Below, in pieces: positions 4,646 through 49,898 of a stretch of 59,728 nt of DNA. The DNA lies in assembly GCF_900115365.1 (NCBI RefSeq), contig NZ_FOWD01000026.1, positions 1-59,728 on the forward strand, in the 5' to 3' direction. Each line of letters opens with the position of its first letter. The stretch's first letter is position 1. Source of the DNA: Anaerocolumna aminovalerica (GTDB lineage: Bacteria; Bacillota; Clostridia; Lachnospirales; Lachnospiraceae). Under the pieces are notes generated by a model, which saw only the letters and a list, made by a program, of their open reading frames with translations, ran no database searches and was not told the DNA's origin. Position numbers and translations under genes: made by a program.

Positions 4646-5422
4646 TTATGCTTCCTCCTGGTTATATTCTTTATAAAGTTCGAAGAAGGCATCTTCCAAA
4701 TCCTTTGTACCTGTTTGAACTAATAATTCCGGAATGGTTCCTTCTGCTACCTTTTTGCCATTAATAATAATTCCTACCCTGTCACAAAGTTTCTCCGCTT
4801 CTGACATAATATGAGTAGATACAATCACTACTTTGCCCTGTTCTCTCAATACTTTTAAATAATCTGTAACGCTTCTTGCAGTTACAATATCCAGTCCATT
4901 GGTGGGCTCATCGAATATAACAACTTCCGGATCATGAACCAAGCTTACTGCTATGGAAGCTTTTTGCTTCATACCAGTTGACAGCTCTTCGATTTTTTTA
5001 TCCTGAAAATCAAAGATTCCAAATTGTTTAAACAGCAATTCTCTTCTTTCATTAATTGTTTTATCATCCATTCCGTGGAGTTTTCCGAAAAAGTTAAACA
5101 TATACTTTGGTGTAAACTGAGGGTCTAACTTTATTTCATTGGTTAAGAAAGCAATGGATTCCCTTACCTTCTCCGGATATTTTATGGTATCATTTCCGCA
5201 GACCTTTATAGCTCCGTCCGTTGGTCTTAGCAAGGTTGCCACACAACGAAGGGTAGTTGTTTTACCCGCACCATTAGGTCCCAACAGACCATAAAGTTCT
5301 CCTTTTTTAGCAGATAAAGATACATTATCTACCGCTTTTTTTATACTTTTCTTTGTTTTTTGTTCTCTCATCTGTTTCTTGGAAAGCTTATAAATCTTCG
5401 TTAAATTACTTATCTCAATCAT
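4646..5422 (-). CDS. ABC transporter ATP-binding protein, NatA-like
   Basis: This is the cytoplasmic ATPase that powers the adjacent ABC-2 permease. Walker A (GLLGPNGAGKTTT, about residue 48), the signature (LSTGMKQK), Walker B (EVVIFDEPTNGLD) and the switch His (VSTHIMSEAEKL) are intact. The basic insert between the first strand and Walker A (KKQMREQKTKKSIKKA) and the overall sequence resemble NatA-type sodium exporters. An 8-bp inverted repeat 19 bp upstream of the start is a candidate operator. The order ATPase then permease, 1 bp apart, supports one complex. Confidence 0.8.
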   Translation of the reverse strand: MIEISNLTKIYKLSKKQMREQKTKKSIKKAVDNVSLSAKKGELYGLLGPNGAGKTTTLRCVATLLRPTDGAIKVCGNDTIKYPEKVRESIAFLTNEIKLDPQFTPKYMFNFFGKLHGMDDKTINERRELLFKQFGIFDFQDKKIEELSTGMKQKASIAVSLVHDPEVVIFDEPTNGLDIVTARSVTDYLKVLREQGKVVIVSTHIMSEAEKLCDRVGIIINGKKVAEGTIPELLVQTGTKDLEDAFFELYKEYNQEEA

Positions 5423-5440
5423 TTCTACACCCTTCCCATA

Positions 5441-5462
5441 TCACATTTACAGACAAATGTGA
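5441..5462. promoter_or_regulatory. inverted-repeat operator candidate upstream of the natA-like gene
   Basis: TCACATTT (5441-5448), six bases, AAATGTGA (5455-5462): perfect 8-bp arms at -19 to -40 from the ATG. No regulator gene is adjacent, so the cognate protein is unknown. Confidence 0.45.
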
Positions 5463-5982
5463 CACCGCCACCAATAAATCGGTTGAAAGAATCGGATTGT
5501 GGCAGCCTTTCTATATATGTATTTTCTTTCAGCCGTCTTCCGCTAAGATCTTGCCATATTTATTTTATACTGGTCCTGATCATACTTTTATGGCTATACT
5601 TTATTGTCGATATAAAGATATACCATTATTTCCCTTACGTCAATATCAATAATAATTATTAACATATTTTTAATACATCTTGAAAACAACTTTTCTATCA
5701 TTTACTTGAGTTTTTAAATCAGATTATGTAGGTTTTAAGGTTTTTTCTTACCAAATCAGGATACAAATAGTCCAAAAATTACTTTACAAAAAAATTTTAA
5801 TTTTTTCTTAAATTATTGTAATAACTGTCCTTTTATTCTCTTTTATTCTGTGCTATACTATGAATAATTGTGGGTAAATATACTACCCATTTTACTTATG
5901 TTCATTTTTAAAATTTGACTCAATAACTCCCTCAAAACTTCAAAAAGGTGGGATAACAATATTACAAAGGAGTAATATCATT
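5463..5982. other. long divergent intergenic region
   Basis: 520 bp between the natA operator and the DUF1846 gene. ORFs here are short and lack ribosome-binding sites. Visible elements are a possible TATACT -10 (5854-5859) and a TGGGTA/TACCCA hairpin (5871-5889) in the likely DUF1846 leader. No known riboswitch was recognised. Confidence 0.45.
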
Positions 5983-7488
5983 ATGAAATCAGGATTTGAT
6001 CCTCAAAAATACATTGAAGAACAATCTAAGTTTATTCTGGAACGAGTAAATAATTATGACAAGCTTTATCTGGAATTCGGAGGTAAGCTAATAGGGGATA
6101 AACATGCTAAGAGGGTTCTTCCGGGATTTGATGAAGACGCTAAGATTAAACTTCTTCAAAAATTAAAGGACAAAGCAGAGATTATTATCTGCGTATATGC
6201 AGGAGACATTGAACGAAATAAAGTACGGGGAGATTTTGGTATTACTTATGATATGGATGTGTTACGGTTAATCGATGATCTTAGATCCTATAACTTGGAA
6301 GTGAATAGCGTTGTCATTACCCGTTTTAGCGGACAGCCGGCTACTACTGTATTCATGAATAAATTAGAACGGAGAAATATAAAGGTCTATACTCATGTGG
6401 CAATCGAAGGATACCCTACTGACGTAGATGCCATCGTCAGTGAAGAAGGCTATGGTAAGAACCCTTATATCACAACAACAAAACCTATCGTTGTTGTAAC
6501 TGCACCGGGTCCTGGAAGCGGCAAGCTGGCAACCTGCCTGAATCAGCTTTATCATGAATATAAAAGAGGGAATTCTTCCGGCTATTCTAAGTTTGAAACC
6601 TTCCCTGTATGGAATGTTCCTTTAAAGCATCCTCTTAATGTAGCTTATGAAGCAGCAACTGTAGACTTAAAAGATGTTAATATGATGGATTATTTTCATT
6701 TTGAAGAATACAACGAAGTAGCTGTAAATTACAACAGAGACTTAGAAATGTTTCCGGTTATAAAAAGAATCATTGAGAAAATTACGGGAGAAGAATCCAT
6801 TTACCAGTCACCCACTGATATGGGTGTAAATCGAGTAGGATTTGGAATCATAGACGATGATGTAGTTGCAGAAGCTTCTAAACAAGAAATCATCCGCAGA
6901 TACTTTACCACTGCCTGTGAATTTAAAAAAGGCTTAGTTGACGAAGAGGTTTTAAATCGAATGAAGGTCATTATGGAAGAAGTAGGTTTAAAGCAGGAAG
7001 ACAGAGGACCTGTGCTCCCTGCAAGAGAATATATGTCAAAACAAAAAGTTGGTTCTTCCGATTCTGAAAGAACTCCTGTTATTGCCCTGGAATTACCGGA
7101 TGGTACAATGATTACCGGTAAAGGTTCTTCCTTAATGGATTGTTGTTCTGCTGCCATCCTAAATGCAATTAAATACATGGCAGGAATCTCGGATGAAATA
7201 TACCTGCTGTCACCATTAATCTTAAATACCATTCAGGATTTAAAAGACAAGAAATTAAAGAATAAAATACCGGCATTAAACGCTGATGAAATATTAATCG
7301 CCCTAAGTATCTGTGCTGTTACCAATCCAACGGCTCAATTAGCTTATGACAAGTTAACTGAACTAAAAGGTGTGCAGGCTCATGCCACCGTAATGTTAAA
7401 CAGACGCAGCGAGCAATTGCTCCGTGACTTAGGAATAGATGTTACCTGTGATCCATATTATCCATCAGAGAATTTGTACTATATTTAA
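5983..7488 (+). CDS. DUF1846 (UPF0371) family protein
   Basis: A 501-aa cytosolic protein of the DUF1846 family, which is widespread in Firmicutes and whose biochemical role is unknown to me. It begins [18 protein letters not shown] and contains the family segments [20 protein letters not shown] and a glycine-rich [20 protein letters not shown] near residue 175 that resembles a nucleotide-binding loop. The later [11 protein letters not shown] and [15 protein letters not shown] stretches are also family-typical. The ATG has AAAGGAG 10 nt upstream. It is a single-gene unit ended by a 30-bp palindromic terminator. Confidence 0.9.
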
Positions 7489-7510
7489 ACAAGCCGTTAT
7501 CTAAAGTCAT

Positions 7511-7540
7511 TAAAGGGATGTTGCATGCAACATCCCTTTA
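7511..7540. terminator. 30-bp perfect palindrome terminator
   Basis: The sequence from 7511 to 7540 equals its own reverse complement, centred on GCATGC, with AT-rich flanks on both sides. It lies between the convergent DUF1846 and amidase genes and probably terminates both. Confidence 0.75.
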
Positions 7541-7562
7541 TATTTATCACAAATCTTGATAT

Positions 7563-8672
7563 TTACTTGAAATATTCGTCTAATCCATTGGCTATTCCTT
7601 GCACCATTTTATCCTGATATTTTTCTGTAGCCATTAATTTATCTTCTTTTGGATTTGTCATAAATCCCATCTCTACAATAGTTACAGGAACTTCACACCA
7701 ATTTATGCCGCTCATCGTATCCGTTTCCCACACTCCTTTGGAATTGGCTCCTGTAGTTTCAAGCATTCCATCCAAAACGGCTTTTGAAAGTGTTTTGCAT
7801 TTTTTATATAGGCTGCTGATATAAGGATTTTCTTTTGTGGGACTAATGGTCATAATGCCGGATACTTTGCTGTTGTCAGAGCCGTTGGCATGAATCCGGA
7901 TAAATGCATCAGCTTTTGCTTCATTAGCAATAGCTGCCCTTTCACTATTACTGATATTTACATCATTGGTTTCACGAATCATAACAACTTCATAGCCTCT
8001 TTTTATAAGTTCCTTTTTCAATTTCAGAGATACTTTTAGATTCAATTCATACTCTTTTAGCCCACTGGCTACTCCTGTGGTACCGGAGGATACTTTTGCC
8101 TTCTTCTCCTTAGCCCCTGGCCCTACCGGTTCTTTTTCATTATTCCCTTTTTCTTGATGCCCGGCATCAATAACTATTAACTTCTTTGTTTCCTTTGCTT
8201 TTTCATTCTCCCCTTGATTCTTGCTTACTTTTTTATCCTTTTCCCTTTCTTTTGTATCTTTTGTTGAACTTTCTTTTTTAACTTCCGTACTGGCATTTTT
8301 ACCTTCCTTTGTACTTCCGCTTTTACTTTCTCCTGTACTTCCACTTTTGTTTTCTTTTGTACTGACTTCTTTACTTATCTTAGTACTATCGTTTTCGCCT
8401 TCTTTTGTACCTGTTTTTTCTCTTTCATTTTCGCTTTTCTTTATATCCTTATTTTTAGTTTTATTCTCTTTCGCACCGGTATGTATAATGGTATCAAATG
8501 CATTATTATCTTCTGACTTTTCTATTTCTTTTATATCATGTTCCAATATTTTAGTTTCAGAAATTATTGGCTCTTCGGGGTTTGGATATGGGAGATTATC
8601 CTTCTTACCACATCCCCACAGGAAAAGAAAACTGGAAAGAAGTATTATTATTTTAAACTTTTCTTTAAACAT
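7563..8672 (-). CDS. N-acetylmuramoyl-L-alanine amidase, lipoprotein (Amidase_3)
   Basis: A zinc amidase that cleaves the bond between MurNAc and the stem peptide, anchored outside the membrane. A signal peptide with lipobox (LFLWGC, Cys 21) is followed by a long low-complexity Lys/Glu/Ser/Thr linker (about 45-165) with GST/KE-type repeats. The Amidase_3 domain follows: metal ligands and catalytic residues are seen in IDAGHQE, LKEYELN, RIHANG and IVEMGFMTN. The linker would let the enzyme reach through the wall. A role in cell separation or sporulation is possible but not shown. The upstream neighbour is also a lipoprotein gene (prsA-like). Confidence 0.88.
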
Positions 8673-8696
8673 AATGTGTATCCTCTCTTATATATA

Positions 8697-8744
8697 AAAA
8701 GACTATAAAATAACCGGATTTACCAATTTATTTTATAGTCTTTT
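8697..8744 (-). terminator. terminator between the prsA-like and amidase genes
   Basis: A 17-bp perfect inverted repeat with arms at 8697-8713 and 8728-8744 (AAAAGACTATAAAATAA and its complement) surrounds a 14-nt loop. It ends in a T-run in either direction and lies just after the prsA-like stop on the minus strand. Confidence 0.75.
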
Positions 8745-8773
8745 CTAACTGTCTCTAAAATGGATTACTTAAT

Positions 8774-9964
8774 CTATTTTTTGTCTTCCGGAGTTTCTTC
8801 CTTTTTACCATCAGCGGTTTCCCCCGTGGTGTCTTTGTTATCTTTTCCCGTTGAGTCTCCGGCTTTTCCTTCATTAGCAGCATCTGATGCTTTATCTGAT
8901 TTTGCATCTTCTGATATAAACGTTATGGAGTCCCATATTTCATTATTTACTTTTATATCCGTATCTTTATTCCATTCTTCATAAAGTTTTTGGAAAGCAT
9001 CCGATTGTCGTTTTGATATGATTTGTTCTTTTTGCTCCTGTGTTGCATCTTCGTCAAAATCACTTACACAGTAAAGAATGTGAAATCCATAATCTGTTTC
9101 AACAATATTACTTACTTCTCCTGGTTTCATTGCAAAGGCTGCCTCTTCAAATGGTTTTACCATTTCACCTTTACCAAAAGTGTATTCTACACTTGAATCA
9201 TCGGTATTGGCTTCTGCCAACTTATAAAAGTCATCTGTTTCTTTTGCTTCCTTTAATAAGTTATCTGCCTTTTTACGCGCTTCTGCTTTTTCTTTTTCAG
9301 TTAAATCTACAGTTTTTCCATTTTCATCCTTCTTTTGTGTCTTAACTAAAAGATGCTGAATGGTAATTTGTTTTGCTTCTTCATCAGAAACTTCTGTATC
9401 CACATCTAAAGTAGCTGCTTCATATACTTTTTGTTTTAATAAGTCATCTTTCAGTATATTAGTAACAACCTCTTCTGTTATTCCGTAAGCTGCTTTATCT
9501 TCATCTGTAATCCCTGCTAGGAATTTTGTTGTATATTCTTTAATTTCTGCTTCTTCATCTTCTGAAACTGATACATTAAAGCTGCCTGCTTTATCACTTA
9601 TTATTTTGTTCTGAACAATCATGTTCATAATATCCTGCTTTGCCAATTCTTCAAAAGTCTGGCCTCCGCCGAAATCATATCCCCATATATCAGAACCGTA
9701 CTGCGCTTCCATCTGGGCCTGAAATGACTTAAAATAAGCCATTGCCTCACTATATAAAACCTTTTTATTTCCAACAGAAACAACTTCTTTTCCAAATAAC
9801 TTATTGTCTGTTTCTGTACCTTTCTCATCTGTTTCTTTTCCTTCTGCACCCTGGCTTGTGCTTCCGTTATTATCTTTTTTACCAGGCTTTGAACAAGCTA
9901 CAGCAAATACCGTAATGGATGCCAAAAGCCCTAAGTACATTAATTTCTTTGCAATTTTCTTCAT
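8774..9964 (-). CDS. prsA: foldase lipoprotein, parvulin-type peptidyl-prolyl isomerase
   Basis: PrsA-type foldases sit on the outer face of the membrane and help exported proteins fold. The signal peptide ends in a lipobox (FAVAC, Cys 24). A SurA_N/trigger-like region (about 55-190) is followed by a parvulin domain (about 193-305) with QHLLVKT, a phosphate-loop-like region and a YGFHILY end. The acidic Lys/Asp/Gly-rich tail (about 350-396) is low complexity and probably disordered. AGAGGAAAGA precedes the ATG. Its own terminator separates it from the amidase gene downstream, and mfd lies upstream on the same strand. Confidence 0.88.
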   Translation of the reverse strand: MKKIAKKLMYLGLLASITVFAVACSKPGKKDNNGSTSQGAEGKETDEKGTETDNKLFGKEVVSVGNKKVLYSEAMAYFKSFQAQMEAQYGSDIWGYDFGGGQTFEELAKQDIMNMIVQNKIISDKAGSFNVSVSEDEEAEIKEYTTKFLAGITDEDKAAYGITEEVVTNILKDDLLKQKVYEAATLDVDTEVSDEEAKQITIQHLLVKTQKKDENGKTVDLTEKEKAEARKKADNLLKEAKETDDFYKLAEANTDDSSVEYTFGKGEMVKPFEEAAFAMKPGEVSNIVETDYGFHILYCVSDFDEDATQEQKEQIISKRQSDAFQKLYEEWNKDTDIKVNNEIWDSITFISEDAKSDKASDAANEGKAGDSTGKDNKDTTGETADGKKEETPEDKK

Positions 9965-46591: not shown

Positions 46592-47160
46592 CTAGATTTT
46601 TATAGGTATTCGGCTGATAGCACCGGAGAGCAGCCGAATCAGTACAACAATCAGCAATAGTGATATACAAAGCTGTGTGGTCTCAGGTAAGTGAAGCAGC
46701 ATGGATGTGGCATTCATGATATGGAAGCAAGCAATGGCATATAATATTCCCAAAAAAGCGGTATGCAATTTTCCAAACCGAAAGCCGATAGCAGCCGTTG
46801 CAGCCATTTTTTTCTCCTGCTCAGTAAGCTGGCAGAAGAAAACAGCTTCTTTCTGATTACCAAGAATCCGCTGGGAAAGAAGTTCCCTGCCCTCCACAAA
46901 GCGATCTACTGCTTCCCAGTCTCCTGTTATTGCAGTTCCTTTTTGACGGAGAGCGTCACAATCATCATGGGCAAACACCTGTCCTTCATGCAAGATAACC
47001 ATATCGCTGAATAATGTCTCCATCTCATTGATATAGTGTGTGGAGAATAGGATTAACTTCGGTTTCCTCATATAATCCTCCAGCAGCTCACTGATAAACA
47101 GTTTTCTCATTGCAGCATCCATGCCCAGATGGTCATCTCCATCACTCCAAATTAAATCAT
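46592..47160 (-). pseudogene. ABC transporter ATPase, N-terminally truncated
   Basis: The frame keeps the end of an ABC ATPase: DDHLGMDAAMRKLF (Walker B/D-loop region), then LILFSTHYINEMETLFSDMVILHEGQVF with the switch His. A C-terminal hydrophobic region has two TM segments. Walker A and the signature motif are missing. Upstream, in-frame TGA TGA stops occur at 47161-47166, exactly where the duplicated leader begins. The gene was therefore cut by the rearrangement that placed that leader. An ATG at 47122 could still be read, but the product would not be an ATPase. Confidence 0.8.
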
Positions 47161-47168
47161 GTCATCAC

Positions 47169-47196
47169 TTGACAACCTCTATTTTCATGCTATACT
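47169..47196 (+). promoter_or_regulatory. promoter of the first leader copy
   Basis: TTGACA (47169-47174), 16 bp, TATACT (47191-47196). It is the same promoter as at 49279-49306 apart from two spacer bases. Confidence 0.75.
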
Positions 47197-47210
47197 AAAA
47201 CAGTCACAAA

Positions 47211-47344
47211 TGCCCTAAAAACAAGGTCTATGGGCTATATAAACCGTGTGTTCGAGACCTTCCACACGTAAAACAAAACATTCAGAAGTGTTCTTTTATC
47301 TAGTTCTATCAGCCTTTATCATTCCCTTGGATGAAGGCTTTTTT
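47211..47344 (+). ncRNA. orphan copy of the queT leader (candidate preQ1 aptamer) running into a terminator
   Basis: P1 is GCCC (47212-47215)/GGGC (47232-47235), and the second hairpin is CGTGTG (47245-47250)/CACACG (47263-47268). Loop AAGGTCT (47223-47229) can pair with loop AGACCTT (47255-47261). No ORF follows: an intrinsic terminator (47311-47344) comes about 40 nt later. The predicted product is an RNA of roughly 140 nt. Confidence 0.6.
47311..47344 (+). terminator. intrinsic terminator after the orphan leader
   Basis: AGCCTTTATC (47311-47320) pairs with GATGAAGGCT (47330-47339) over 10 bp, followed by a T6 run. Confidence 0.85.
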
Positions 47345-47421
47345 AAGAATTTAGGCTTTATCACCTTTTATCTGATTTCATCTGAAAAATACCGAGTTGA
47401 GTCAGAAAATTGAGTCAAAAA

Positions 47422-47459
47422 AAGAGTGCTATCCACTTGAGCTAGCACTCTTCTTTTTA
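47422..47459. terminator. second intrinsic terminator
   Basis: AAGAGTGCTA (47422-47431) and TAGCACTCTT (47443-47452) form a 10-bp stem with an A-run before and CTTTTTAT after. Confidence 0.75.
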
Positions 47460-47460
47460 T

Positions 47461-47638
47461 CGTTCCCTTAATCGGGTCTTTAACATACGTTCCTTTAATC
47501 AGGTCAAAATTATTAACGTACATACATATTATATGCAATTATACACAAAAAACGCTAACAATATAGCGTTTTTTAAAATTTTATCGTTTCCTTAATCGGA
47601 TCTTTTTTATATACTTTTACCGTTCCCTCAATTGGGTC
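47461..47638. repeat. four 18-bp direct repeats with compensatory changes
   Basis: CGTTCCCTTAATCGGGTC at 47461, CGTTCCTTTAATCAGGTC at 47488, CGTTTCCTTAATCGGATC at 47585 and CGTTCCCTCAATTGGGTC at 47621. Bases 5-7 and 14-16 form a dyad (CCC/GGG). In copies 2 and 3 each arm change is matched by its partner (CCT/AGG and TCC/GGA). Spacing is irregular: 27, 97 and 36 bp. Confidence 0.75.
47547..47574. terminator. intrinsic terminator inside the repeat array
   Basis: AAAAAACGCTA (47547-47557) and TAGCGTTTTTT (47564-47574) form an 11-bp perfect stem with a 6-nt loop. It is symmetrical and likely terminates the minus-strand PemK-like unit. Confidence 0.8.
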
Positions 47639-47734
47639 AAATTAATAATAACATATTTTATATATTTATGCAACACTTATTTTTATCTTTTTTCTTTACT
47701 ATATTTCTCTGCAAAGTCACTAAATTCACAAATA

Positions 47735-48595
47735 TTATGTAATATTATCAATTAATGCTTTTGCATTGTTTATTTTGTCTTGATTATTGGAAAATAATGC
47801 TTTTACTATTTCCTTTCTCCTTTTATAACGATTTTCCTTATAGTATATATGTTCTGTATACAATGATTTATGTTGAGCAGAGTCAAATTTATCTTTGTCA
47901 ATTTTTTTTGCTTTCACATTATACTCTATGGTATTACAACTATATTTAATTATAGCATTGTTATCATCTGTCACAGTAAACGAATAATCATATATTAATC
48001 TATATCCATGAAGTAATTCTACTGTATTATAATCCAATATCCAATTTGCATTTATCTCTTGAATGTAATCGCATAAACACTTGCCTTCATTTAACAAAAA
48101 CAACTTTATGCCATCATTTATTCTTATTATCTGTAAGTCGCTTAATACAACTTTCAAATTATTTCCTTGGCGATCTGCTATATTATTTCCACTTGATGTA
48201 TTAATCTGAAACCATGGTGATATCCTTTTTCGTGATACTTCTCTTATCTTGCCCAGATGAACCCAGCTTTCTTTTATATCCAAACAATCTCTAGAAGTAA
48301 CAAAGTTTTCTATTTTTCCTATTGTAAATGTCTTCATTGACTCTAACTTAGGTTGGCTAGTCATAGGAATTACAATAATGCTCTCATCATTAGGTGGTGC
48401 ACTCCACACAATAGCAAAGTGAGTATCATTATATTCTGTTCCTAATCCTGTAAATTCACAACTAACTATATTACCTCTTTTTAATTGAGGTAAATATGCA
48501 TTATTTGTTCCTCTTTCAACCTTCACTGAACTTAATTGTGTAACTCTAATAACATTATCAAGTATCATTTTATTCATATTTTCTCTGCTACCCAT
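47735..48595 (-). CDS. MazF/PemK-like protein with C-terminal extension
   Basis: Residues about 38-150 follow the MazF/PemK barrel: LKRGNIVSCEFTG, FAIVWSAPPNDESIIVIPMTS and WVHLGKIREVSRKRI. MazF-type toxins cut mRNA at short sequences. The protein is 286 aa, more than twice the usual 110-120. Its extra 130 C-terminal residues include a Lys/Arg-rich helix (YYKENRYKRRKEIVKAL) and are not recognised. No typical small antitoxin overlaps it; a separate 89-aa gene lies 163 bp upstream. AGAGGAG precedes the ATG. It sits between two copies of the same leader, in DNA that looks inserted. Confidence 0.6.
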   Translation of the reverse strand: MGSRENMNKMILDNVIRVTQLSSVKVERGTNNAYLPQLKRGNIVSCEFTGLGTEYNDTHFAIVWSAPPNDESIIVIPMTSQPKLESMKTFTIGKIENFVTSRDCLDIKESWVHLGKIREVSRKRISPWFQINTSSGNNIADRQGNNLKVVLSDLQIIRINDGIKLFLLNEGKCLCDYIQEINANWILDYNTVELLHGYRLIYDYSFTVTDDNNAIIKYSCNTIEYNVKAKKIDKDKFDSAQHKSLYTEHIYYKENRYKRRKEIVKALFSNNQDKINNAKALIDNIT

Positions 48596-48758
48596 TATTC
48601 ACTCCTCTACTGCATGTCAGTACATTTTCATATGTCTGCTTTATTTTTGGAGAGTCAAAAGTTCAATACCAATTAACACTTTAAATTGAAAATAACTTTT
48701 ACCTCTCCAGTACTAATGCATATCAAATTATTATTTCCTCGTATTAGTGCTAATTGCT

Positions 48759-49028
48759 TTATTTATCAGCATAACTATTTCTTACTTTCTCAATTCCAGT
48801 ACGACCGTGAGGATTAGTACCATATCCATCAATAATATCGGCATCGTAATTACCTATAATTGGCTTAAGTCGTGTGTTGTACCAATCCGTTATACTAGTA
48901 TTTACTGCTGCCTTTCTGTCGTAATTATATTCATCAAATAAAGTTTCTTTCGAGCATCTTATTACGACCTTAATCTCTTCTTTTTCAAAAATTTGCCTTT
49001 CTAAATCAGTTGCAGATACTTTACCCAT
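48759..49028 (-). CDS. small protein of unknown function, possible partner of the PemK-like gene
   Basis: An 89-aa, mostly charged protein with no TM and no recognised domain. Visible segments are VSATDLERQIFEKEEIKVVI and DWYNTRLKPIIGNYDADIID. It has a near-consensus promoter with a palindromic operator and a weak AAAGGG ribosome-binding site. Upstream position, same strand and small size would suit an antitoxin or a regulator of the PemK-like gene, but the 163-bp gap is larger than in typical toxin-antitoxin pairs. Function is not assigned. Confidence 0.5.
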   Translation of the reverse strand: MGKVSATDLERQIFEKEEIKVVIRCSKETLFDEYNYDRKAAVNTSITDWYNTRLKPIIGNYDADIIDGYGTNPHGRTGIEKVRNSYADK

Positions 49029-49054
49029 TTTATAAGCCCTTTCTATTACTATTT

Positions 49055-49119
49055 ATTAATACGTATTTAATATAATGTTAATACGACTTTATATTAAGCT
49101 TATTATTGTGTTTTGTCAA
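49055..49119 (-). promoter_or_regulatory. strong promoter and operator of the 89-aa gene
   Basis: On the minus strand, TTGACA (49114-49119), 17 bp, TAATAT (49091-49096). ATTAATACGTATTTAAT (49055-49071) is a near-perfect palindrome just downstream. Its half-site TTAATACG recurs at 49079-49086, 22 bp (two helical turns) away. Confidence 0.7.
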
Positions 49120-49150
49120 CGCTTTTTAAATATAATTTTTATTGAAATCA

Positions 49151-49242
49151 GGACCACCAGTGTGAACTGGTGGTTTGCTCTGTCCCTGTAAAGGACTATT
49201 GCCGGCATGAACCTCAAAGGTCCTTCGAAAGTAAAGGCCTCA
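49151..49242 (+). mobile_element. IS200/IS605-type right-end-like block (remnant)
   Basis: Compact hairpins lie in series: ACCACCAGT-GTGA-ACTGGTGGT (49153-49174, 9 bp), GTCC/GGAC (49182-49196), ACCT/AGGT (49211-49221). The block ends in GGCCTCAA. Serial hairpins with a TCAA-type terminus recall the right end and omega-RNA scaffold of IS605-group elements. No tnpA or tnpB is present. The match is by pattern and memory only. Confidence 0.4.
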
Positions 49243-49278
49243 ACCGTACCTAAATTGAGTCAAAAGTTGAGTTAACGC

Positions 49279-49306
49279 TTGACAACCCCCATTTTCATGC
49301 TATACT
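49279..49306 (+). promoter_or_regulatory. queT promoter
   Basis: TTGACA (49279-49284), 16 bp, TATACT (49301-49306). Confidence 0.8.
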
Positions 49307-49320
49307 AAAACAGTCACAAA

Positions 49321-49379
49321 TGCCCTAAAAACAAGGTCTTTGGGCGATATTAAACCGTGTGTTCGAGACCTTCCACACG
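49321..49379 (+). promoter_or_regulatory. candidate preQ1 riboswitch (probably class III) of queT
   Basis: P1 is GCCC (49322-49325)/GGGC (49342-49345). The second hairpin is CGTGTG (49356-49361)/CACACG (49374-49379). AAGGTCT (49333-49339) in the first loop is fully complementary to AGACCTT (49366-49372) in the second, giving a 7-bp pseudoknot. It sits directly before queT, the typical target of preQ1 classes II and III. The class was not verified against a covariance model. Confidence 0.62.
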
Positions 49380-49406
49380 TAAAACAAAACTAAAGGAGAA
49401 TTTTAT

Positions 49407-49898
49407 ATGAGAAGCAAGAAAATTTTATTTATGACGGAAGCTGCTATTATTGCAGCTATTTATGTTGTATTAGTTTTTGCATTTGCACCAATTAGCTTTC
49501 CTGCCATACAGGCAAGAATTGCAGAGGCACTAACTATACTTCCTTTCTTTACTCCTGCTGCCATTCCGGGAGTTACCATTGGTTGTCTGTTATCTAATCT
49601 TTTGATTGGCGCAGATATTCTGGATGTCATCTTTGGTACTCTTGCAACCTTACTTGGCACTATGGGTTCCTACCTATTAAGAAAGAACAAGTTCTTAGTT
49701 CCCCTTCCACCCATTATTGCCAATGCCCTAATTATACCATGGGTCCTGCGTTACGCTTATGGTGCACCTGAGGCAATCCCATTTCTAATGCTTACGGTAG
49801 GCATTGGAGAAATTATTGCTTGTGGTATATTAGGTACGTTTTTATTGCTTGCATTAGATAAATATAAACATATTATCTTTCATTATAATAAAGAATAA
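49407..49898 (+). CDS. queT: queuosine precursor transporter QueT
   Basis: A small multi-pass S-component-like protein that takes up preQ1/preQ0-type queuosine precursors, probably with an ECF energy module encoded elsewhere. Five or six hydrophobic segments cover 163 aa. The family segments FAPISFPAIQARIAEALTIL, PFFTPAAIPGVTIGCLLSNL and DVIFGTLATLLGTMGSYLLR are clear. AAAGGAG lies 8 nt before the ATG. The structured leader upstream supports preQ1-responsive control. It is a single-gene unit closed by a palindromic terminator. Confidence 0.93.
   Translation: MRSKKILFMTEAAIIAAIYVVLVFAFAPISFPAIQARIAEALTILPFFTPAAIPGVTIGCLLSNLLIGADILDVIFGTLATLLGTMGSYLLRKNKFLVPLPPIIANALIIPWVLRYAYGAPEAIPFLMLTVGIGEIIACGILGTFLLLALDKYKHIIFHYNKE

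Follow-up and report, generated by a model that had tools for sequence, protein, structure and literature searches.

The window analyzed here is a stretch of 59,728 nucleotides (nt) from Anaerocolumna aminovalerica and makes up an entire contig of an 83-contig, 4.62-Mb draft genome. In it, queT (positions 49407 to 49898, forward strand; 163 amino acids, aa), a queuosine-precursor transporter gene whose name comes from the first-pass annotation made from the sequence alone, is preceded by two near-identical copies of its leader, with a 2-kb segment carrying a PemK-like toxin gene between them. We argue that this segment is very probably an integrase-less cassette flanked by attachment (att) sites, similar to a cis-mobilizable element (CIME) and belonging to a group of integrative elements that use the preQ1-I-like queT leader as their attachment site.

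The outer leader copy (47167 to 47279) and the inner one (49277 to 49389/90), both on the forward strand, are 95.6% identical over 113 alignment columns, with 4 substitutions and one 1-nt gap, in agreement with the first-pass description of a duplication of about 113 bp with few substitutions and one indel. The 113-bp leader has no further matches in its own 4.62-Mb genome. As that description also had it, both copies include a TTGACA-16-TATACT promoter (47169 to 47196 in the outer copy and 49279 to 49306 in the inner copy); an upstream hairpin and an aptamer hairpin follow, and the complementary segments AAGGTCT/AGACCTT are shared. The inner copy (49277 to 49390), made up of promoter, upstream hairpin, preQ1-I-like aptamer, and tail, continues into TAAAGGAG (49391 to 49398) and stands in front of queT, as had been reported. 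The outer copy is an orphan. After its TAAAACAAAAC tail it ends immediately 5' of CTAAAGGAG and thus lacks the Shine-Dalgarno/P2 strand, it runs into a terminator-like hairpin (47311 to 47339), and the list of open reading frames (ORFs) of the window has none longer than 64 aa on the forward strand between this copy and position 49276. The same promoter and hairpins in both copies might point to two functional riboswitch leaders in ancestral order, each with a gene of its own, but the missing strand, the terminator-like hairpin, and the empty forward strand make that arrangement, which the first-pass annotation had considered, highly improbable.

In the leader RNA, the loop CCUU of the aptamer could, by eye, pair with the Shine-Dalgarno AAGG. 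The Rfam PreQ1 model (RF00522) scores the inner copy at 25.7 bits and the outer copy at 15.9 bits, neither of which reaches the gathering cutoff of 39; a sub-threshold match is also present at the leader in 15 of the 16 related loci searched, and the sixteenth gives no match. With scores below the Rfam gathering cutoff, the queT leader is only preQ1-I-like, and its binding of preQ1 is putative. A loop-loop pairing in both copies had been proposed as well. The complementarity that it needs is there, and an upstream complement of at least 6 nt to the aptamer loop occurs in 30 of 67 queT-type leaders, compared with 7.4% of shuffles, and so exceeds chance. The contact itself gained no such backing: RNAfold predicts no loop-loop contact and joins the AAGGTCT/AGACCTT segments in a helix with which the aptamer stem cannot coexist, and local folds leave the loop complement unpaired in only 3 of 38 cases, so kissing loops are not favored. 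Folding z-scores are +0.47 (49311 to 49414) and -1.87 (47200 to 47345). A kissing-loop riboswitch was therefore rejected as the principal story of the locus, since its complement is partly conserved but the alternative helix is favored and the stability is not significant.

Leaders of this kind recur. Matches to the leader DNA were found in 14 of 15 genomes of the genus, several of which have more than one, and the core pattern TTCGNNACCTTCCNNNNNTAAAACAAAAC is present in 146 of 397 family genomes, 11 of which have two copies. Scanning genome_contigs for core copies that do not run on into the queT Shine-Dalgarno sequence yielded 42 loci, whose titles name Lachnospiraceae or genera that belong there (Faecalicatena, Eisenbergiella, Dorea, Blautia, Mediterraneibacter, Parablautia, Extibacter, Herbinix, Claveliimonas, and others), plus a few organisms labeled only Clostridiales or Clostridia. 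The 42 genomes have at least two cores in the same orientation on one contig (25 genomes), cores on different contigs (12), cores on opposite strands (1), or a single core (4). We assembled 27 consecutive outer/inner pairs, collected by exact core match and on one strand by construction, from 26 genomes (24 of the 25, that of the window, and G269); loci with cores 30.8 kb apart (G435), a decayed outer core (L065), one exact core (L063), or cores on opposite strands (L142) were left out. Outer and inner copies are 1.07 to 17.2 kb apart. queT follows the inner copy in 25 of the 27 pairs, and the other two are the inner ends of stacked elements. Judged from these sequences, insertions have repeatedly targeted the preQ1-I-like leader of queT in Lachnospiraceae-type genomes, and it is not the scene of an isolated duplication.

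This recurrence also bears on assembly. An artefact, which the first-pass annotation had allowed for, would suit a window that is a whole contig of an 83-contig draft and the 12 of 42 genomes with cores on different contigs. Against it, the two copies are told apart by 5 positions and by the sequence that comes after each, and 25 other genomes show the same layout on a single contig, in two cases on chromosome records titled complete. Because the arrangement recurs in this way, misassembly of the leader pair is unlikely, and an artefact is scarcely credible as the explanation of the locus.

In 18 of the 27 pairs, the element encodes a tyrosine recombinase, and all of these belong to one family. 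In 15 of the 18, its gene points at the outer copy, with the stop codon 24 to 179 nt away from that copy. Both family integrases scanned, and likewise the integrase of the Herbinix locus L245, have PF00589 and the SAM-like PF14659. The closest solved chains are 6emy, 6en0, and 6emz (“Int protein”; E value, 9e-27), which we take to be the Int of Tn1549. Exact tandem repeats of 7 to 12 bp stand upstream of 21 of the 27 inner copies, compared with 4.7% of shuffles, and 19 of these repeats have a period of 11 bp; the repeated word occurs at least twice in the left end of its own element in 15 of the 21 cases, versus 31 of 544 comparisons with the left ends of other elements. Such repeated words resemble the arm-type binding sites of tyrosine recombinases. 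In the window, the proposed arm-type sites, all read on the forward strand, are two TTGAGTCA words at the left end of the segment (47397 to 47417; words at 47397 to 47404 and 47410 to 47417) and TTGAGTCA and TTGAGTTA at its right end (49255 to 49274), to which relatives have matching right ends. TTGAGTCA occurs five times in the 59.7-kb window (2.1 expected), three of them at the two ends of the segment; the right-end words of the window are outside the 21 tandem-repeat cases, which required 7 exact bases.

Related elements of 8 to 10 kb (L229, L236, L237, L239, and L240) have different right-end arm words (TTTGGTACTTT or GTGGGTA) and, by eye, primase-like and sigma-like genes; they resemble phage satellites. 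Four genomes with a single exact core (L252, L255, L259, and L263) have tandem arm-type repeats before the promoter, some of them degenerate by eye, like scars of lost elements. At L142 (G200; 5330 to 9272), the cores lie on opposite strands of the same contig, with a fragment of the family integrase near the first, which would reflect either misassembly or an inverted element.

Promoter-like sequence is present in 26 of the 27 inner copies, compared with 14% of shuffles. Over the 104 nt upstream of the aptamer, outer and inner copies are 34 to 95% identical across the 27 pairs, and only 4 pairs are more alike than the closest match among 100 random inner/inner pairs (79%; random mean, 0.55). 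Since inner copies have promoters and upstream outer/inner identity is mostly random-like, the element appears to bring the promoter, the first hairpin, and the aptamer along. The same comparison speaks to a simpler account, in which plain homologous recombination or segmental duplication between preexisting leaders captured the 2-kb module and no dedicated recombinase took part. The window copies, 95.6% identical over the full leader, would suit this account, as would the four pairs (the window, L228, L230, and L234) at 0.80 to 0.95 over 104 nt, above the best random value of 0.79, and the empty-site comparison in Claveliimonas bilis described below, which puts the exchange outside the tail. 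The remaining 23 pairs, however, are no more alike (0.34 to 0.79) than random inner/inner pairs can be, the integrase position is fixed, and arm-type words are shared far more by the two ends of one element than by different elements; with one queT match in the A. aminovalerica genome, a second native leader was not at hand. We consider plain recombination a decidedly improbable origin of the segment. Homologous exchange between leaders may act as an additional process, and later exchange of this sort is likely in some genomes.

C. bilis (G465, L229) has a 9.6-kb element at its queT leader, and genome G333 matches it on both flanks (98.8% over 1,530 nt and 99.1% over 1,531 nt) and has one leader, with the 9.6-kb insert absent. 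This empty site therefore supports insertion or excision. From CGAAAACCAAGGTCTAT onward, the G333 leader is identical to the inner, not the outer, C. bilis copy, which places the switch for this pair in the first hairpin. Seven pairs have wholly different aptamer stems (L052, the second L053 pair, L129, L227, L236, L239, and L242), several of them with no other shared stretch, and these place the exchange in the aptamer or tail. The match between outer and inner copies breaks off abruptly after TAAAACAAAACT, except that the window and the first L053 pair diverge one base sooner; the T after TAAAACAAAAC is identical in 25 of the 27 pairs and the next base in 2. A crossover that uses the aptamer loop as overlap, and so falls between the two hairpin arms, was rejected, as no chimeric stems are seen by eye in the seven stem-discordant pairs. 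An empty site for the window itself was not found among 17 related queT loci compared, and the flanks of relatives of G454 were not close enough to yield further ones.

Several observations weigh against reading the leader as the att site of these elements. The crossover evidence is split between the tail, favored by the seven stem-discordant pairs, and the first hairpin, where the sole close empty-site comparison sets the switch about 60 nt farther 5'; moreover, the invariance of loop and tail in the 27 pairs is circular, because exact matches to both were required. Promoter-like sequence is found in 25 of the 27 outer copies as well, tandem repeats are not exclusive to inner copies, since 7 of the 27 outer copies have one upstream, and genome G441 carries its two cores on opposite strands. 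Of 30 loci (L197 to L226) surrounding an integrase that belongs to this family at E ≤ 1e-60, 4 have a leader core nearby and 26 do not. A circular form was not found, and the exact core is absent from viral_contigs. Phage and plasmid matches to the integrase are all below 60% identity, at most 33% among the matches listed, with 27% in viral_contigs. The genome of the window has no close match to the queried integrase (best, 29%), so nothing in it speaks for present mobility of the window cassette. Two candidate sources were accordingly rejected: an integrase encoded elsewhere in that genome as donor, with 29% as its best match, and a phage or viral attP, none of which was found in viral_contigs or in the phage or plasmid searches.

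Beyond its outer leader, the window segment starts with a left end (47280 to 47424, forward strand) that begins with ATTCAGAAG, includes the terminator-like hairpin at 47311 to 47339, and is conserved in cassettes of this type: it recurs at 75 to 86% identity over 142 to 152 nt in L060, L244 (the same locus as L160), L245 (the same locus as L185), L063, and L065 and at 82% over 68 nt in L053. As in a CIME, the leader repeat and TTGAGTCA words are present at both ends of the segment, and integrase and transfer genes are lost; the two ORFs of at least 80 aa on its cargo strand (reverse) include no integrase. At L245, the same left end is followed by an integrase 41.7% identical to that of L052, so this cassette type has an integrase-bearing form. 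Because no integrase lies inside it and the best match in its own genome is 29%, the window segment is best described as a putative integrase-less, att-flanked remnant or cassette.

Nine of the 27 pairs (1.07 to 7.1 kb) have no family integrase: the window, the first L053 pair, L054, L131, L182, L228, L232, L234, and L235. Six of the nine have toxin or defense matches, namely, PemK, DarTG, retron I-B, PIN, Fic/PDC-S04, and PDC-S01. The cargo scans covered a selection of genes, those of L182 and L232 not being among them, and one L131 gene had no Pfam match. On the integrase-bearing side, L052 has a PARIS-like gene pair, and four scanned genes of L133 and L233 had no PADLOC match. Cargo also varies among loci with the left-end type of the window, which include DarT/DarG (L053), a CAAX-protease-like gene (L063), and MerR plus PNPOx genes (L065).

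Some of these loci are composite or decayed. At L053 (1900 to 17400), also from Anaerocolumna, two stacked elements precede queT, a 2.1-kb DarTG cassette without an integrase and then a 13-kb element with an integrase and, by eye, two reverse-transcriptase-like genes; in the first leader, the aptamer hairpin is missing its 5' arm. In two genomes of the genus, L054 (7572 to 14684) and L065 (6260 to 15985), a retron-like reverse transcriptase and an ATPase gene lie at the queT leader without an intact integrase. The L054 retron genes scanned as type I-B, and those of L065 are alike by eye; L065 keeps an integrase remnant, and L054 also has a kinase gene like PD-T4-6.

The recurrence, the integrase position, the arm-type repeats at both ends, the empty site, and the inner promoter and aptamer can be read from sequence, and they suggest how the locus may have arisen. 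A tyrosine recombinase would split the queT leader; the outer copy would retain the old promoter and aptamer and lose the Shine-Dalgarno strand, and the element would supply the inner copy next to queT, with its promoter, upstream hairpin, and aptamer. queT would thereby keep a preQ1-type leader, probably with its regulation preserved. The integrase family presumably acts on the leader site, and an integrase acting in trans may have moved, or may be able to move, the window cassette. The PemK-like cargo would be a toxin or defense module restrained by a downstream small RNA.

Outside the cassette, on its outer flank, lies the remnant of an ABC-transporter ATPase gene (46592 to 47161, reverse strand; a 176-aa ORF without a match in a Pfam scan). 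It was reported to lack its N-terminal half beside the first leader, which our comparison bears out: the remnant aligns only to residues 157 to 250 (40 of 94 positions identical) of a 293-aa ORF in L146 that has, by eye, a Walker-A-like motif. A permease-like tail of the remnant is merely hinted at (9 of 20 identities; E value, 0.011). The first-pass annotation had inferred that an insertion, or recombination between two leaders, captured the module at the riboswitch and truncated the ABC gene. Capture of the module by insertion at a riboswitch agrees with our results; the truncation does not, because the remnant ends at about 47161, upstream of the promoter of the outer leader, and the exchange lies near the 3' end of that leader (about 47279) or at most in its first hairpin. 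The insertion was thus rejected as the cause of the truncation: the break falls 5' of the old promoter, on the side of the leader away from the exchange, and the ABC-like matches are distant (at most 39% identical within the genus). Loss of the ABC half would need an older event at the 5' edge of the outer leader, such as a deletion beside some previous element. We found no relative that lacks the element and has the ABC gene intact here, and positions 40.0 to 47.15 kb of the window are unmatched in the 17 related queT loci.

The cargo of the cassette comprises a PemK/MazF-like toxin gene (47735 to 48595, reverse strand; 286 aa) and a small gene (48759 to 49028, reverse strand; 89 aa) whose product has no match in Pfam, PADLOC, or phage searches. 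The toxin assignment made at first pass is corroborated by PF02452 (E value, 4.4e-8; 33.7 bits against a cutoff of 23.1). Among the 397 family genomes, the only one with a homologue is its own. Diverged homologues, 27 to 37% identical in the alignment, are carried by plasmids of Clostridioides difficile, Carnobacterium, and Paenibacillus (L272, L282, and L284); that of C. difficile is 36% identical to the window toxin and has, by eye, a very similar copy on a Clostridioides phage. The Carnobacterium protein passes the PF02452 cutoff, the Paenibacillus protein falls just under it (20.3 bits), and the C. difficile protein gives no match. In viral contigs, the window toxin found no match and the alignment found one, again the C. 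difficile element. The homologues have no clearly shared protein neighbor.

The “repeats and terminators” noticed earlier between the leaders are present and resolve into two tandem small-RNA-like units 3' of the PemK-like gene, both on the reverse strand. The first (47547 to 47673; z-score, -1.90) has weak promoter-like hexamers, TTGCAT-17-TATTAT (47673 to 47645), hairpins at 47621 to 47638 and 47585 to 47602, and a terminator-like hairpin at 47547 to 47574. The second (47417 to 47545; z-score, -3.75) has hairpins at 47488 to 47505 and 47461 to 47478 and a terminator-like hairpin at about 47417 to 47457. Each unit thus has two copies of GA-CCC-GATTAA-GGG-AACG and then a terminator-like hairpin, with stems varying among CCC/GGG, TCC/GGA, and CCT/AGG. 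In a search allowing up to one mismatch, the repeat is confined to this site in the 4.6-Mb genome; covariation within the window alone is modest, with 31 of 500 shuffles reaching the same level. Separately, the exact toxin-side repeat pattern was seen in five viral contigs (L277 to L281).

In all three homologues, two hairpins with the same loop and different stems, followed by a terminator-like hairpin, lie 3' of the toxin stop codon. Such a same-loop pair arose in 0 of 1,000 dinucleotide shuffles at each of the four loci and in 1 of 1,000 for the phage copy. Among 883 real 230-nt downstream segments, four contain one, and three of these belong to toxin homologues (1 of the 880 others). The window does not pass this test over its first 230 nt, since its first two loops are unlike each other; its second pair passes once the search extends to 330 nt. 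The hairpins have promoter-like hexamers in front of them in Paenibacillus (TTGACA-17-TAATAT), in the window (the weak pair given above), and, by eye, in C. difficile (TTGATT-17-TATAAT) and Carnobacterium (TTGAAA-17-TAGAAT), the last two overlapping the stop codon and thus falling outside the scripted scan, which started after it.

These patterns make the downstream small RNA a candidate antitoxin of the PemK-like toxin. A conventional type II system, in which the 89-aa protein is the antitoxin and the hairpins are only a decorated terminator, is a serious contender, if one that we rate somewhat below even: the 89-aa gene lies directly upstream of the toxin gene in the same orientation, and a 55-aa ORF upstream of the C. 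difficile homologue matches the 89-aa protein marginally (E value, 0.003 to 0.005 in a three-sequence comparison). On the other side, the 89-aa protein lacks Pfam and PADLOC matches, the Carnobacterium neighbor is unlike it, the Paenibacillus record has no annotated gene in the 1 kb upstream, and each of the four toxin genes has paired same-loop hairpins after it (the window with 330 nt), versus 1 of 880 other segments. A type III arrangement, in which a tandem-repeat antitoxin RNA, terminator, and toxin issue in that order from a single promoter, is not what we find; the order is toxin, hairpins, and terminator in all four loci. A bolder version of our interpretation would make the att sites swappable modules, with cassettes replacing promoter and aptamer and an integrase-less pool of 1- to 7-kb defense and toxin segments passing through one riboswitch, and the window a new toxin-RNA class whose same-loop-hairpin antitoxin has a promoter of its own. 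We put this forward tentatively and would sooner doubt it than assert it.

Repeated replacement of promoter and aptamer by mobile elements offers an explanation for mosaic queT leaders in Lachnospiraceae-type genomes. It would provide a natural series of promoter-plus-riboswitch replacements for comparing ligand response, and it makes TTCGNNACCTTCCNNNNNTAAAACAAAAC a small, easily searched place at which such bacteria collect defense genes. Should the small RNA downstream prove to be an antitoxin, the toxin-RNA arrangement would differ in order from described type III systems, because those have the repeat RNA before the toxin. In the open-access literature, we found no account of the queT leader as an att site and none of elements replacing the leader of a riboswitch, nor did we find the toxin-RNA arrangement seen here. 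The accounts cited below already describe a prophage in a PreQ1 riboswitch, tandem CIMEs, and elements integrated at a gene's 5' end (SXT).

CIMEs, and the tandem accretion at one att site of integrative and conjugative elements (ICEs) and integrative and mobilizable elements (IMEs), are defined in PMC5704250. By that definition, the window resembles a CIME in having a segment without integrase or transfer genes between att-like direct repeats, and elements stack at the site in L053 and L065. Unlike in CIMEs, the att repeat here is a riboswitch leader with its promoter, and mobilization is putative. An SXT element has to supply the sequence upstream of its target gene. SXT/R391 ICEs are described as integrating in the 5' end of prfC (PMC2791158, PMC2654960); they share with our elements a tyrosine recombinase that targets the 5' side of a housekeeping gene, whereas the target here is a noncoding regulatory leader, and promoter and aptamer are supplied. 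In Enterococcus cecorum, a prophage sits in a PreQ1 riboswitch, with a likely change in expression of the downstream nucleoside hydrolase gene (PMC10117131); it too is a mobile element in a preQ1 riboswitch, and, going by that description, the replacement leader, the cassettes, and queT set our case apart. The integrases resemble those of the Tn916/Tn1549 type in their closest solved chains (6emy/6en0/6emz) and in the arm-type direct repeats at the ends of the elements. Tn916 is reported to prefer AT-rich DNA at many sites (PMC3715440), unlike the elements described here, whose target is one conserved leader. Finally, described type III toxin-antitoxin systems have a repeat RNA before the toxin (PMC5086642). 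The window and its toxin homologues are like them in that a toxin of MazF-like fold adjoins a small RNA that bears repeats and has a Rho-independent terminator, and unlike them in that the RNA follows the toxin, seemingly from its own promoter, with short same-loop hairpins as its units.

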